From Kordiimonadaceae bacterium (GTDB lineage Bacteria > Pseudomonadota > Alphaproteobacteria > Sphingomonadales > Kordiimonadaceae), in assembly GCA_017640725.1 (NCBI GenBank), contig JAEPQB010000001.1:682001-746000 (forward strand): a DNA stretch of 64,000 nucleotides, written 5' to 3'. Below are positions 28,250 through 38,600 of this stretch, piece after piece. A program made the translations under genes and the position numbers. The notes beneath the pieces were generated by a model, which searched no databases, was not told the origin of the DNA, and was given only the letters and a program-made list of their open reading frames with translations. The first letter of the stretch is position 1. Every line of letters begins with the position of its first letter.

Positions 28250-29656
28250 TTACATGTGGATCGGGCGACCGTGCACCGCAAGCGCGGCTTCTTTCACGGC
28301 TTCACTTTCGGTTGGATGCGCGTGACACGTTAGTGCAATGTCTTCAGCACTCGCGCCAAACTCCATCGCAGTTGCCGCTTGCGCGATCATGTTGCCTGCA
28401 TCCGCACCAATGATATGAACACCGAGCACGCGGTCTGTTTCTTTGTCCGCAAGAATTTTCACAAACCCATCAGTAATCTGGTTGGTCTTCGCGCGGCTGT
28501 TGGCGGTGAACGGGAACTTGCCTGCAGAATACGCAATGCCAGCTTCCTTCAGCTCGTCCTCCGACTTGCCAACGCTCGCCACCTCAGGGTGCGTGTACAC
28601 AACACCCGGGATCACATCATGGTTCACATAGCCATTGAGGCCAGCGATATTTTCCGCGCAGGCAATGCCCTCGTCTTCGGCTTTGTGCGCCAGCATCGGG
28701 CCCTCAACCACATCACCAATCGCCCAAATACCAGGCACATTGGTTGAGAAGTCATGACCGATCTTAACGCGTGAGCGTTCGTCCATCTCAACACCAACCG
28801 TCTCCAGGCCAAGGCCGTCGGTGTAGGGCCGCCGCCCGACAGATACGAGCACGCGGTCCGCTTCAATTGTTTCGGCGTCGCCGCCTTTAACCGGCTCGTA
28901 CGTCACTTTGACTTTGGTCTTGAGGGCGTCAACTTTTGTAACCTTGGACGACAGCTTCAGCGTCATGCCCTGCTTCTTAAGAATACGCGCGAAAGTTTTG
29001 CGCACTTCTGTGTCCATGCCCGGCAGGATCTGGTCCATAAATTCAATAACCGTGACGTCAGCGCCCAAACGCGCCCAAACGGAACCGAGCTCCAGGCCGA
29101 TGACACCGCCACCGATAACCACCATATGCTTTGGCACTTCCGGCAGGTCCAGCGCACCAGTGGAGGAAACCACCCGGTCTTCATCAATCTCAATGCCCGG
29201 CAGGCTTGCCACATCACTGCCGGTGGCGATGATGGTGTTTTTGGCCTTCACCGTCTGAGTGCCGCCTTCATTGAGCGCCACTTCGATGGTGTCTTTGGCA
29301 ACAAAACGACCGGCACCTTTGATCCAATCAATTTTGTTTTTCTTGAACAGAAACTCGACACCCTGCGTCAGGCCATCAACTGACTTTTCCTTGGAGCCCA
29401 TCATTTCTTTAAGGTCAAAGGAAATGCCGTCGGCTTTCAGGCCATATTTGCCAAAATCATGCGCGGCTTCGTGATACAGGTGCGAGGCATGCAACAACGC
29501 CTTCGAGGGAATACAGCCCACATTCAGGCAGGTGCCACCAAGCGTTTCACGCTTTTCAATGCAGGCTGTTTTGAGGCCCAGCTGCGCGGCACGAATTGCT
29601 GCCACATATCCACCAGGGCCAGAGCCAATCACTACTACATCATAAACTTCAGACAT
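28250..29656 (-). CDS. lpdA: Dihydrolipoyl dehydrogenase (E3)
   Basis: A 468-residue flavoenzyme that reoxidises the dihydrolipoyl arm of 2-oxoacid dehydrogenases with NAD. It has the FAD motif [12 protein letters not shown] at the N-terminus, the redox pair C43-LNVG-C48, the NAD-binding [11 protein letters not shown] near 180 and the C-terminal His-Glu pair in CHAHPTESE. Last gene of the suc operon, 11 bases after sucB, so it probably serves the 2-oxoglutarate dehydrogenase complex. Confidence 0.95.
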
Positions 29657-29667
29657 TGGTTTCTGCC

Positions 29668-30906
29668 TTACATATCCAGAAGAAGACGCGTTGGGTCTTC
29701 AAGAGCTTCTTTGACACGCACGAGGAAGGTCACTGCCTCCCGGCCATCAATGATGCGGTGATCGTACGAGAGCGCCAGATACATCATCGGGCGCACAACA
29801 ACTTCGCCGCCGATTGCCATCGGGCGTTCCTGAATTTTATGCATGCCCAGAATAGCGGACTGCGGCGCATTCAAAATCGGGCTCGACATCAAGGAACCGA
29901 AGATACCACCGTTTGAAATGGTGAAAGTACCGCCCTGCATATCGTCGATTGTCAGCTTACCGTCACGGGCTTTCTTGCCATAGCCCGCGATCGCAAGCTC
30001 GGTGTCAGCAAAGGACATGTCCTGCGCGTCCTTGAGAACCGGCACCACAAGGCCGTTCGGGCTAGAGACCGCAACACCGATGTTAGCGAAGTTGTGATAG
30101 ACAATTTCTTCGCCATCGATCTGCGCATTGACCGCTGGAATTTCCTTGAGCGCAAGGCAGCAGGCTTTGGTGAAGAAGCTCATGAAGCCAAGCTTGATAT
30201 TGTGCTTCTTCGCGAACAGGTCTTTGTATTTGGCACGTGCCGCCATCACTGCTGTCATGTCCACTTCGTTATAAGTGGTCAGCATGGCCGCGGTGTTTTG
30301 TGCGTCCTTCAGGCGTGCTGCGATTGTTTTCCGCAGCCTCGTCATCTTCACGCGCTCTTCACGCGGACCAGATGGCGCAGCAGCCGCGGCGGGTGCCGCG
30401 AGCGTGCGGGCGCTGCCACCTTCAATGGCCTTCAAGACGTCGCCCTTGGTCAACCGGCCGTCTTTACCGGTGCCGGTCACGGACGTTGGATCAAGGTTAT
30501 AGTCCTCCACCATGCGGCGCACGGCTGGTGACATGGGCATCAAGTCTTTTGGCTGTGCTGCAGGTGCAGGAGCGGGCGCTGGAGCAGGCGCAGGAGCTGC
30601 TGCGGCTGGCGCAGGCTCTGCGGCTGCGGGCGCTGCTGCCGGGGCCGGTGCGGCTGTCGCGGCACCTTCTGTGTCAACCCGTGCGATCAAGGCACCGATC
30701 TCAACCGTGTCGCCTTCGGCAACAAGCTGCTCAACCAGCACACCGGCCACAGGGCTTGGCACTTCCATCGCCACTTTGTCGGTTTCCACCTCAACGATGG
30801 GTTCGTCTTGTGCGACGGCTTCGCCAACACCTTTTAGCCAGGTTCCGATTGAGCCTTCGGCCACCGATTCACCCATCTGCGGGATTACGATATCTTCAAT
30901 TGCCAC
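29668..30906 (-). CDS. sucB: Dihydrolipoamide succinyltransferase (E2 of 2-oxoglutarate dehydrogenase)
   Basis: A 412-residue E2 with an N-terminal lipoyl domain ([11 protein letters not shown], Lys near 43), an Ala/Pro-rich flexible linker (about 80-118), a peripheral subunit-binding domain ([21 protein letters not shown]) and the catalytic domain ending in [13 protein letters not shown] with the active His and Asp. It forms the core of the complex that makes succinyl-CoA. One lipoyl domain is normal for SucB, so the extra free lipoyl-like protein upstream is not needed to complete it. Confidence 0.95.
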
Positions 30907-30948
30907 CTTCAGTGCTCCTAGTTTGTGATCTCTGTTTTACCGGTTCGC

Positions 30949-31281
30949 TTAACCATCAAGTCCAAACATCTTGGCGAACCATGATTTCTTTTGTTTTACC
31001 GTGGGTGCTGCTTCTGTATCCAAAATACCTGCAGTATCCCCAACGGAAATTCGCTGTTTCTTTTTGAAGTGAGTTTCGACCAAGACTCCGTCATCTTGGC
31101 TCAAAATCTCTACTTCTACTCCCATCGGCTGATTCAAAATCGTCTTGCCAGTGGCCATCTCCACCTTGAATACCGGTTCATCAATTTGAACCTGCTCTCC
31201 GATTTTTTTCATCCAAGAGAGGAAAACTACTTCCTTTGTTTGCTCTCCAAGACTTGGCATATGCACCTCAACCAGAGCCAT
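30949..31281 (-). CDS. Free-standing lipoyl/biotinyl-like domain protein within the suc operon
   Basis: A 110-residue single-domain protein lying between sucA (19 bases away) and sucB (42 bases away). The N-terminal MPSLGEQTKEVVFLSWMKKIGEQVQIDEPVFKVE matches a lipoyl domain over residues 8-41, given here in parts as MPSLGEQ, LSWMKKIGEQV and DEPVF. The expected DK lipoylation pair reads T-G-K46, and the region after it is about ten residues longer than in SucB. A basic tail ends in WFAKMFGLDG. GC is about 44% by my count (146 of 333), well below the flanking genes. AGGAGG precedes the start. Function unknown. Confidence 0.75.
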   Translation of the reverse strand: MALVEVHMPSLGEQTKEVVFLSWMKKIGEQVQIDEPVFKVEMATGKTILNQPMGVEVEILSQDDGVLVETHFKKKQRISVGDTAGILDTEAAPTVKQKKSWFAKMFGLDG

Positions 31282-31290
31282 AACAGCTGA

Positions 31291-31296
31291 CCTCCT
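31291..31296 (-). promoter_or_regulatory. Consensus ribosome binding site of the lipoyl-like gene
   Basis: AGGAGG on the minus strand, nine bases before the ATG at 31281. It is stronger than most sites in the window and indicates that the small gene is translated efficiently. Confidence 0.8.
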
Positions 31297-31300
31297 AAAA

Positions 31301-34210
31301 TCAGCTTGTCAGCGCATCGTGGACGAGTTGTTTCTGTTCTTCAGCGTGCTTGGACGCCAGACCTGTTGCCGTTGAGGCGCTTGCCAAACGACCAGTATAG
31401 TTGGCGCGCTTGACCGGCATCTTCATAACGGTCAGCAGCGATTCAAGCGGCTCGTTGATGTAGGTCCAGGAGCCCATGTTGCGCGGCTCTTCCTGACACC
31501 AGTTGATGCTCTTCACATTCTTGAAGCGCTTCAGCTCCACCCGCAGCGCATGCGTTGGGAATGGGAACAGCTGCTCCACGCGCAGAATGTATGTGTCATC
31601 AAGGCCGCGGGCATCGCGCTCTTCCAGAAGGTCGAAATAGACCTTGCCCGAGCACAGAACCACGCGTTTGATCTTGTCATCTGCTTTCAACTTGATGTCA
31701 GACACGCCGTTATCGAGGTCTGCGTCATCCCACAAAACACGGTGGAACTGCGAGCCTGGGCCAAACTCATGCAGGCTGGAGACGCAGCGTTTGTGACGCA
31801 GCAATGACTTCGGCGACATAACGATCAGCGGCTTGCGGAAAGTTCGGTGCATCTGTCGTCTGAGAGCATGGAAATAGTTCGCCGGCGTGGTGCAGTTCAC
31901 CACTTGCCAATTGTCTTCCGCTGAAAGCTGCAAATAGCGCTCAAGCCGCGCTGACGAGTGCTCAGGCCCCTGCCCTTCGTACCCGTGCGGTAGCAGCATC
32001 ACCAGACCCGACATGCGCAGCCATTTGGCTTCGGCAGAACAGATAAACTGGTCGATGATGATCTGGGCACCATTGGCGAAGTCACCAAACTGGGCTTCCC
32101 AAAGCGTCAGGCTGTTGGGGTTGGCCATGGAGTAACCATATTCAAAACCCAGCACACCAAACTCAGACAAGTGACTGTCCAGCACTTCAAAATGCTGGTC
32201 TTCATTCATGGTCTTCAGCGGGATGTAACGATCTTCGGTTTTTTGGTCGACAAACACCGCATGACGATGGCTGAAGGTACCGCGTCCGCAATCCTGACCG
32301 GACAAGCGCACATCGTACCCTTCCTTAAGAAGTGTTCCAAACGCCAGCGCCTCAGCCGTGGCCCAGTCAAAGCCAGTGCCGTTTTCAAACATTTTCACTT
32401 TGTTATCGAGAACGCGTTTGAGCGTGCGGTGAATATTGAACTTCTCAGGGTATGTGGTGAGCTGTTCGCCCACTTCCCGAAGCATCATTTCTGCCACGCC
32501 GGTTTCCGCCCGGCGCTTTTCATGGTCTTTGTCGGCAAGGCCAAGGCCTTCCCACTTGCCTTCAAACCAATCAGCCTTGTTTACGCGGTAGTCTTTTGCG
32601 GCTTCAAACTCGTCTTCAAGGTAAGTCACGAACTCAGCCTGCATCTGCGTGAACTGCTCGTCGGTCAGAATGCCTTGTTCCTTGAGGCGGTCAGCATAAA
32701 GCTTCACCACGTTCGGATGCTTTTTGATCGCTGCATACATCAGTGGCTGCGTGAACGCGGGCTCGTCAGATTCGTTGTGACCAAAGCGGCGGTAACAGAA
32801 CATGTCGATCACCACGTCGCGCTTGAACGCCATGCGGAATTCGGTGGCAAGCTTGGTTGCAAAAACTGCGGCCTCTGGGTCGTCACCATTCACGTGGAAA
32901 ATTGGTGCCTGCACCATTTTCGCAACGTCGGACGGATATGGGCTGGAGCGCGCGAACTGCGGGCTTGTTGTAAAGCCAATCTGGTTGTTCACGATGAAGT
33001 GGATCGTGCCACCGGTGTTGTAGCCCCTGAGGCCAGACATGCCGAAACATTCAGCCACGATGCCCTGCCCCGCGAACGCCGCATCGCCGTGCAACAACAA
33101 GGAGAGCGTATCATTGTGCTCTTTATCCTGCTTCATCTGCTGCTTGGCGCGCACTTTACCGATCACAACCGGGTTCACCGCTTCAAGGTGAGACGGGTTT
33201 GCGTTCAGGGACAGGTGCACTTTGTTGCCGTCAAACTCACGGTCGGCACTGGTGCCAAGGTGATATTTCACATCACCCGAGCCCTGCACATCGTCGGGCG
33301 TGGAAGCGCCGCCGTGGAATTCGTTAAAGATGGCGCGGTACGGCTTCTGCATTACGTTCGCAAGCACATTCAAGCGCCCACGGTGCGGCATGCCGATAAC
33401 AATTTCATTGAGGCCCATCTGGCCACCGGTTTTCATCACACCTTCAAGCGCGGGCACCATGGCTTCACCGCCATCAAGGCCAAAGCGTTTGGTGCCGGTG
33501 TATTTACGGCCCAGGAATTTTTCGAACTCAACAGCTTCAATCAGCTTGTTGAGGATCGCAACTTTGCCTTTGTCGGTAAACTGGATTTCCTTGTCGCGGC
33601 CTTCGATCTTGCGCTGGATCCAGGCTTTCTCTTCTGCATCATTGATGTGCATAAACTCCACACCAATGTTGGCGCAGTAAGTGCGCCGCAGGATCGCAAT
33701 GATTTCCCGCATGCTTGCGGTATCAAGGCCAAGCACACCGTCCATGAAGATTGGACGGTCCATGTCGTCTGCGCTGAAACCATAGGTGCCCGGCTCAAGC
33801 TCAGGGTGTGTTGGGCGCTCTTCAAGACCGAGCGGGTCAAGGTTTGCCATCAGGTGGCCCCGCACCCGGTAGGTGCGCACCATCATCAAAGCGCGGATGC
33901 TGTCAATTGTCGCGGCGCGAACATCTGCTGCCGATACACCAGCACCGGTTTCGGCTTTTGGTGTTTCGGTTTCGATGAACATGTCCGAGCCATCAAGGCC
34001 GGTTGTCAGGTCATCGTCAGGGCGAAGGGGCCAGTCAGACCGCGACCAGCTTGGGCCGGTCTTTTGAATGCCCGCTTCGAGCGTTTGGAAATATTCCTGC
34101 CAGCCTTGGTCCACGGATGTGGGGTCAGCGGCATATTGCTCATACAGGTTTTCAACAAATTGGGGGCTCACGCCCTCCAAAGCTGCGATACGGTCTAAAT
34201 CTGCGCCCAT
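31301..34210 (-). CDS. sucA: 2-oxoglutarate dehydrogenase E1
   Basis: A 969-residue thiamine-diphosphate enzyme that decarboxylates 2-oxoglutarate and succinylates the E2 lipoyl arm. It shows the N-terminal FVENLYEQYAADP E2-interaction helix, the GMPHRGRLNVLANV and GDAAFAGQG segments of the ThDP site and the C-terminal QEEPRNMGSW region typical of SucA/OdhA. Length is normal. It follows sucD by 43 bases. Confidence 0.97.
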   Translation of the reverse strand: MGADLDRIAALEGVSPQFVENLYEQYAADPTSVDQGWQEYFQTLEAGIQKTGPSWSRSDWPLRPDDDLTTGLDGSDMFIETETPKAETGAGVSAADVRAATIDSIRALMMVRTYRVRGHLMANLDPLGLEERPTHPELEPGTYGFSADDMDRPIFMDGVLGLDTASMREIIAILRRTYCANIGVEFMHINDAEEKAWIQRKIEGRDKEIQFTDKGKVAILNKLIEAVEFEKFLGRKYTGTKRFGLDGGEAMVPALEGVMKTGGQMGLNEIVIGMPHRGRLNVLANVMQKPYRAIFNEFHGGASTPDDVQGSGDVKYHLGTSADREFDGNKVHLSLNANPSHLEAVNPVVIGKVRAKQQMKQDKEHNDTLSLLLHGDAAFAGQGIVAECFGMSGLRGYNTGGTIHFIVNNQIGFTTSPQFARSSPYPSDVAKMVQAPIFHVNGDDPEAAVFATKLATEFRMAFKRDVVIDMFCYRRFGHNESDEPAFTQPLMYAAIKKHPNVVKLYADRLKEQGILTDEQFTQMQAEFVTYLEDEFEAAKDYRVNKADWFEGKWEGLGLADKDHEKRRAETGVAEMMLREVGEQLTTYPEKFNIHRTLKRVLDNKVKMFENGTGFDWATAEALAFGTLLKEGYDVRLSGQDCGRGTFSHRHAVFVDQKTEDRYIPLKTMNEDQHFEVLDSHLSEFGVLGFEYGYSMANPNSLTLWEAQFGDFANGAQIIIDQFICSAEAKWLRMSGLVMLLPHGYEGQGPEHSSARLERYLQLSAEDNWQVVNCTTPANYFHALRRQMHRTFRKPLIVMSPKSLLRHKRCVSSLHEFGPGSQFHRVLWDDADLDNGVSDIKLKADDKIKRVVLCSGKVYFDLLEERDARGLDDTYILRVEQLFPFPTHALRVELKRFKNVKSINWCQEEPRNMGSWTYINEPLESLLTVMKMPVKRANYTGRLASASTATGLASKHAEEQKQLVHDALTS

Positions 34211-37787: not shown

Positions 37788-38600
37788 CTACAGTCGCCTG
37801 CCGGCTGAGCGGGTGCGCCGCTGCCCAAACCCAATCATTGCCAACGCAGCAAAAAGCAGCGCCCAGCTAGAAGGCTCAGGTACTGTAACCGCATCTGTTA
37901 CGGTCAAGGTGGTTTGTGACAAACCAACATTCGCTTGCCCATTGCCGCGGCCACGACCTGACCCAAACGACCGGCCGTCAAAATTGCCTACTGATACCCC
38001 ATTGATATCAAAACCTGTTTCGCCGTTGCCTATCTGCAAAAGGCCATCCCTGAAGGTGCGCTGGTTGGTGCCGTTGCCCTGAGAGAAAGTGACATTGCTT
38101 TCAGCAGCCACAATAAGGCTAATCACATAAGAGCCGGCCGTTGAGAAAATTGAGCTTCCCACACCACTTGAAAGAGACAAAGAGAACGGGTTGGAAAATA
38201 TGCTGGACGCCGACCCCAGATTTTGGAAAACGCCACCGCCAGACACAAGCGAGTTAACTGTTGTCTGCGCAGGTGAGGTTTCACCGGCATCGGCGAACAG
38301 ACCCGTTCCGCCAGTACCAAACGACAGCACAGATGTGGTGCTTTCACTGGAAATCACATAATTAACGCTGAACAGGTCCGGTCTCGCGGTGTCACAAACA
38401 CTGTTCAAAAACTGACCACTGCCACGTGTTACACTGCTGCCGCAAGGGTCGAGTTCAAGACTGGTCCCAAGAGCAACCGGATCAAACAAGCCAACCTCTG
38501 ACGAAACATCAACGCCAATCGTCTGAGCACTGGCCATGTTGGTCAGTAAAAATAGCCCCGTGGCGGCTGCCAATGATTTTGAGAACAGGTTACGCATCAC
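37788..38600 (-). CDS. PEP-CTERM sorting-domain protein
   Basis: A 270-residue exported protein. It has a signal peptide ending ASAQ (about residue 26), a Ser/Gly-rich low-complexity body, and the C-terminal sorting signal VPEPSSWALLFAALAMIGF followed by QRRTR. The PEP motif plus helix plus basic tail marks it as a substrate of an EpsH/exosortase system, which cuts at the motif and anchors or secretes the product. No exosortase is in the window. Body function unknown; such proteins are often linked to exopolysaccharide or biofilm. Confidence 0.85.
   Translation of the reverse strand: MMRNLFSKSLAAATGLFLLTNMASAQTIGVDVSSEVGLFDPVALGTSLELDPCGSSVTRGSGQFLNSVCDTARPDLFSVNYVISSESTTSVLSFGTGGTGLFADAGETSPAQTTVNSLVSGGGVFQNLGSASSIFSNPFSLSLSSGVGSSIFSTAGSYVISLIVAAESNVTFSQGNGTNQRTFRDGLLQIGNGETGFDINGVSVGNFDGRSFGSGRGRGNGQANVGLSQTTLTVTDAVTVPEPSSWALLFAALAMIGFGQRRTRSAGRRL

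Follow-up and report, generated by a model that had tools for sequence, protein, structure and literature searches.

A free-standing lipoyl-like protein encoded between sucA and sucB in one Kordiimonadaceae species

Gene order and composition at the sucA-sucB junction

The window, a 64,000 nt stretch of a Kordiimonadaceae genome (contig JAEPQB010000001.1, positions 682,001 to 746,000), carries on its minus strand the genes of a 2-oxoglutarate dehydrogenase complex in the order sucA, P0001, sucB and lpd. These comprise sucA, encoding the E1 component (31301-34210; NF006914, 1358.6 bits), sucB, encoding E2 (29668-30906), likewise confirmed by family profiles and having a canonical ETDK lipoyl site as well as E3-binding and catalytic domains, and lpd, encoding E3 (28250-29656; TIGR01350, 586.5 bits). 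Ahead of sucA on the same strand lie ORFs that, from their translations, we take to be mdh, sucC and sucD. P0001 itself is a 110 aa ORF at 30949-31281 on the minus strand, with an ATG at 31281 and a stop codon at 30949-30951; it is separated from sucA by 19 nt and from sucB by 42 nt, and an AGGAGG Shine-Dalgarno motif (31291-31296, minus strand) is found 9 nt 5' of its start codon. An earlier reading of the sequence alone had proposed a single-domain ORF with a consensus Shine-Dalgarno sequence here, inside the suc operon, and the coordinates, length and ribosome site are all as it described. Elsewhere in the window, the ORF at 37788-38600 has a C terminus, VPEPSSWALL...RR, which we take to be PEP-CTERM-like.

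A sucB match at an E value threshold of 1e-100 was found in 18 of the 19 genomes searched in the genus, this one included, the remaining genome (G008) being incomplete. The sucA-sucB junction could be aligned in 17 other congeners; all 17 lack an ORF at this position, having spacers of 21-59 nt where the window has a gap of 394 nt, and the ribosome binding site and start of sucB are conserved past the far side of the insert. Hence P0001 represents an insertion in this species. The incomplete genome was searched at the protein level only, its junction lying outside the 17 that were aligned. P0001 is present in one of the 19 genus genomes and in no other genome searched, and the only traces suggestive of a mobile element at the point of insertion are short repeats.

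The composition of the gene is also distinctive. P0001 has a GC content of 43.8%, compared with 58.1% in sucB and 55.2% in sucA, close to the values of about 44% and 60% estimated previously for P0001 and a sampled stretch of sucB, and its GC3 is 0.45, against 0.62 and 0.66 respectively. Both values are the lowest among 63 ORFs of at least 100 aa in the window, a script-picked and mostly non-overlapping set, and a GC content as low as that of P0001 was reached by just 10 of 1930 sliding 333 nt stretches. The suggestion in the sequence-only reading that this looks like an acquired gene is thus supported both by the foreign-looking composition and by the insertion into the suc operon of a single species.

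Relationship to lipoyl domains and possible origin

Residues 5-83 of P0001 match the Pfam Biotin_lipoyl family (PF00364) with a score of 31.8 bits, over the curated cut-off of 22.1, at an E value of 1.3e-7; judged on this profile match, the homology of P0001 to lipoyl domains is above chance, as had been claimed. No NCBIfam model reached its cut-off for P0001, and the five that were listed are all E2 models, matching within residues 3-98, the top one, with 36.9 bits, being that for actinobacterial SucB, and the next reaching 36.3. PF00364 was the sole Pfam match at an E value of 0.01, no E3-binding or acyltransferase domain being found at this limit; the E3-binding domain PF02817, which matched the SucB of the window at 1.2e-12 in the same search, gave no match in P0001, nor did GCV_H (PF01597) at an E value of 0.01. 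Biotinyl domains are modified at a Met-Lys-Met motif, which is not found in P0001, where the neighbours of K46 are G45 and T47. In an alignment with 36 rows of canonical domains, two of which are the same SucB domain from the window, P0001 keeps 14 of the 18 columns conserved in at least 85% of canonical rows, departing from them at residues 14, 39, 45 and 78, where the canonical letters are S, E, D and V. All 36 canonical rows have the D and K at the turn; P0001 has Gly in place of this Asp (T-G-K-T), and the change from Asp-Lys to Gly-Lys noted from the sequence is seen in all five alignments.

Protein searches covered relatives (40 genomes, E value limit 1e-3), the order (396, 1e-7), the phylum (398, 1e-6), Bacteroidota (345, 1e-7), the organism's own family (29, 1e-8) and the order containing one top Bacteroidota match (376, 1e-11), whilst the class was searched with residues 40-110 alone (385 genomes, E value limit 0.01). 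No free-standing homologue of P0001 was found among the matches listed from these samples of up to 398 genomes, although, as the samples overlap and the E value limits differ, weaker free-standing relatives would go unlisted. Other than P0001 itself, the listed matches lie in frames of at least 270 aa, the size of an E2 protein, with the exception of a 102 aa frame at the end of a contig in the incomplete genus member G008; some were translated, and those that were aligned proved to be lipoyl domains. The search of the class with residues 40-110 returned, besides the ORF itself, two weak matches, one in a 420 aa frame and the other in a 294 aa frame. A short-pattern scan of genome contigs, which reaches close relatives only, gave a single match, to the E2 of an uncultured Taibaiella.

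Among plasmids, seven records match P0001 at less than 60% identity, six having an E2-type annotation and one having none, and residues 40-110 gave three chance-level matches (E values of 8-9). Two hits in the plasmid collection, H2 and H13, are chromosome-sized, at 11.8 Mb and 4.9 Mb, and may be wrongly labelled. A single phage record matched, unannotated and unverified: this 159 kb 'Bacteriophage sp.' sequence (MT835496.1), matched in two places, contains an E2-like lipoyl domain and may be bacterial DNA. Viral contigs scanned with the P0001 protein by pattern, which again reaches only close relatives, gave no match, whilst a viral scan with alignment A2 identified three loci, two of which were translated and both of these found to be canonical ETDK domains. 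One contig classed as viral, IMGVR_UViG_3300009051_000020, has a canonical ETDK lipoyl domain followed shortly by two in-frame stop codons. A phage or defence origin was considered and rejected, with no family found in PHROGs and one weak match in PADLOC (PDC-M64A, E value 0.024).

At an E value of 1e-7 or better, matches to P0001 were found in 9 of 396 genomes of its own order and 28 of 398 of its phylum, both including its own genome, and in 108 of 345 Bacteroidota. The best E values, 6.6e-13 and 3.7e-12, came from the Bacteroidota-side searches, that for its own phylum being 3.2e-11 (in family f193); identity to P0001 reaches 45% for Bacteroidota domains, and the highest among the matches listed is 47%, over residues 1-69 (G1069). 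Domain profiles scored 66.0 bits against P0001 when composed of seven Bacteroidota E2 domains, 48.6 with two domains of family f193, 43.6 with 17 SucB rows of its own order (the SucB domain of the window being entered twice), 43.5 with seven rows from families f198 and f221, and 19.9 with three other lipoyl domains from its own genome. In a phylogenetic tree, P0001 joins the Bacteroidota rows with support of 91/79, but its branch, 2.27 changes per column in length, was flagged as unsure by the tool; alternative placements in its own order (p-AU 0.136) or with the f198 and f221 group (p-AU 0.146) were not rejected. A transfer from Bacteroidota is therefore suggested by these comparisons rather than established, as such alternative placements stand and the rows of both profiles and tree were mostly picked as best matches to P0001, from a sampling of its own phylum and of Bacteroidota. 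Duplication of the lipoyl domain of the native sucB fits less well, the own-order SucB profile scoring 43.6 bits against 66.0 for the Bacteroidota E2 profile, but it may still be the source, the own-order placement having a p-AU of 0.136.

The elongated hairpin, K46 and the C-terminal tail

Where canonical domains have T-D-K at the hairpin turn, P0001 reads M-A-T-G-K-T-I-L-N-Q-P-M-G before the next strand. All five alignments place around ten extra residues at or beside this turn. In one, T44 lies opposite the lipoyl lysine and the ten extra residues (45-54; 31120-31149) follow it; in the other four, which share rows, K46 (codon at 31144-31146), the candidate lipoyl lysine of P0001, takes that place, and the extra residues divide into two ahead of it and eight behind. 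Hence the total of about ten extra residues given by the sequence-only reading stands, whilst their placement after the lysine is uncertain. This segment includes part of a weak 11-residue internal repeat (31075-31140), in which ILNQPMGVEVE and ILSQDDGVLVE, 11 residues apart, are identical at seven of 11 positions. A tandem duplication could account for the extra residues, but the score of this repeat was reached by 10 of 500 shuffles, the DNA identity is 18/33, and our own comparison indicates that deleting one copy yields no canonical hairpin.

An AlphaFold2 model was built from six sequences, five of which are canonical domains that possibly bias the fold. It has a mean pLDDT of 79.7 (72 over residues 41-50 and 81 over residues 51-60) and predicts an elongated beta-hairpin at residues 36-60 (31102-31176), composed of strands 36-48 and 51-60 around a turn at 49-50; a model of P0001 from its sequence alone was not usable (pLDDT 34.1). 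Structure comparison with the model found the lipoyl domain 3crk_D (Z 12.8, rmsd 1.1, 77 aligned) and the biotinyl domain 2d5d_A (Z 11.9, rmsd 1.3, 70 aligned), with two integrative models ranked above 3crk_D, and Foldseek likewise led to lipoyl and biotinyl domains; given that five of the six aligned sequences are canonical, this match to the lipoyl/biotinyl fold does not constitute an independent test. In this six-sequence model K46 lies inside the strand that ends at residue 48, not at the tip of the hairpin. The lipoyl fold is accordingly predicted, with moderate model confidence, to be kept, the hairpin to be elongated and K46 to lie off the tip. The sequence-only reading had asked whether the fold is lipoyl-like, as is modelled, and whether K46 is at the tip, which in the model it is not, despite four of the five alignments still placing it opposite the lipoyl lysine.

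A review (PMC6270654) describes, for a Bacillus pyruvate dehydrogenase lipoyl domain, lipoylation of the correct lysine alone, the lysine shifted to the adjacent position in a D41K/K42A variant not being modified; correct positioning of the lysine at the tip was crucial there, and outweighed the flanking Asp and Ala. As K46 falls short of the tip in the model, normal lipoylation of P0001 by the usual enzymes looks unlikely. This argument rests on the modelled tip, since the same review (PMC6270654) ranks the Asp below lysine position in importance, making the loss of the Asp weak evidence when taken by itself. The P0001 genome has one match over the cut-off to the LplA/LipB family (PF03099), which does not indicate which ligase it represents.

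The protein ends in a basic, aromatic tail (residues 93-110; 30952-31005) with a net charge of +3, agreeing with the basic tail described previously; in the model this has low confidence (mean pLDDT 55), with a short helix at residues 100-105. An amphipathic helix here is unsupported: the hydrophobic moment of KKSWFAKMFGL is 0.10, a value that 94% of 5000 shuffles attain, and across the ten 11-residue stretches that were measured it is at most 0.32. A 10 nt exact direct repeat, TGTTTTACCG, is found at 30933-30942 and 30992-31001, flanking the part of the gene that encodes the tail. It is possibly a trace of the joining of the tail or insert, or a product of chance, the estimated probability of such a repeat in a sequence of this length being around one in ten.

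Possible roles at the 2-oxoglutarate dehydrogenase complex

The reading we prefer, at a probability of roughly 35%, is that P0001 acts on 2-oxoglutarate dehydrogenase as an unlipoylated docking protein or decoy. An insertion in this one species has put a small gene into the sucA-sucB gap, and this encodes a putative free lipoyl-fold domain related to those of E2 proteins and most like the Bacteroidota ones. We infer that this protein is made together with the subunits of the complex and is not lipoylated, and that the face of the lipoyl domain that it has kept (E13, E17, W23 and others) docks on either SucA or the lipoylation enzymes, where it would tune or compete with the lipoyl domains of SucB, as a decoy or a modulator subunit. 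A conserved core and face combined with an altered carrier site fits a lipoyl-like docking protein that carries nothing, and consistent with this are the PF00364 score, the match of the model to lipoyl domains, the 14 of 18 conserved columns and the consensus ribosome site within the operon. Against it, there is a single known copy, with no second one to demonstrate conservation at this site, the model derives from six sequences of which five are canonical, and four of the five alignments set K46 opposite the lipoyl lysine. With one genome known to carry the gene, it is almost as likely, if still doubtful, that P0001 is a passenger, derived from part of a foreign E2 gene and tolerated in a permissive intergenic gap, with no role in this host. 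Presence in one of 19 genus genomes and in no other genome searched, as well as the lowest GC and GC3 of the 63 ORFs, would be expected of such a fragment, and the odd hairpin may be the product of decay, as the best-matching aligned E2 domains have the canonical T-D-K. However, the frame is open, a consensus ribosome site precedes it, and 14 of 18 conserved columns persist despite a very long branch; moreover, a recent fragment should resemble its donor, and no listed match exceeds 47% identity. An open frame and conserved core on so long a branch (2.27) argue for constraint over part of the history of the gene, though not necessarily in this host.

Less likely is a mobile carrier, in which K46 would bear a lipoyl or other acyl group and the free domain would shuttle groups between SucA, SucB and Lpd. 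K46 is opposite the lipoyl lysine in four of the five alignments (with shared rows) and T44 is kept; functional free lipoyl proteins exist, such as LbpA (in the excerpted text of PMC6067878) and GcvH, and the lesser importance of the conserved Asp relative to lysine position (PMC6270654, as above) would favour this too. Yet P0001 has Gly where all 36 canonical rows have the Asp of the DK turn, the modelled turn at 49-50 is away from K46, and a lysine shifted by one position stayed unlipoylated in the work covered by that review (PMC6270654). Hence, from the options raised by the sequence-only reading, a mobile lipoyl carrier is disfavoured by the position of K46 off the modelled tip, and an unlipoylated protein is favoured. 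An adaptor, binding the complex through its domain and tethered to a membrane or to another protein by the tail KKSWFAKMFG, seems improbable: the tail has its charge of +3 alongside W and F residues and the short modelled helix at 100-105, but the low hydrophobic moment means that there is no clear amphipathic helix, and the pLDDT is 55. About as remote is the possibility that the elongated hairpin is a protein stand-in for the lipoyl arm, plugging or gating SucA. The domain would then dock on SucA as the lipoyl domain of SucB does, with the I48-L49-N50-Q51 tip directed towards the entrance to the active site, where it would block or gate 2-oxoglutarate dehydrogenase as a genetically encoded inhibitor derived from an E2-type carrier domain. 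Around five extra residues per strand, at approximately 3.3 angstrom per residue, would give a finger about 16 angstrom longer, where the lipoyl-lysine arm is about 14 angstrom; however, a two-stranded finger is wider than the lipoyl arm, which argues against deep entry.

Among the open-licence papers listed in our literature searches, none was seen to describe a protein of this kind encoded at the sucA-sucB junction. P0001 is an altered form of the known lipoyl fold, encountered here in one species. With the lipoyl domain of E2 proteins (SucB/OdhB, of the Bacteroidota type) it shares the modelled fold, the PF00364 score, 14 of 18 columns and up to 45% identity; it differs in being free-standing, in having Gly for Asp, around ten extra residues in the hairpin region and an added tail, and in lacking the E3-binding and catalytic domains of the complete SucB. 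If bound to the complex, the preferred docking protein or decoy would add a further subunit to a bacterial 2-oxoglutarate dehydrogenase, one that arose from a carrier domain now without its cofactor, and a central TCA cycle enzyme would have gained a regulator through the capture of a single domain, in the one species in which it is known here. Such an addition would have parallels in the E3-binding protein (protein X) of pyruvate dehydrogenase and in MRPS36/KGD4, likewise added subunits of 2-oxoacid dehydrogenases, although P0001, unlike protein X, has no match to an E3-binding domain; MRPS36 is reported to be an E3 adaptor that lacks prokaryotic orthologues (PMC9974300). Biotinyl domains (BCCP) are alike in modelled fold, as seen with 2d5d_A, and unlike in their Met-Lys-Met. 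P0001 differs from GcvH and LbpA in its location in the suc operon and in having no GCV_H match at an E value of 0.01, but resembles both in being a small stand-alone protein of the lipoyl kind.
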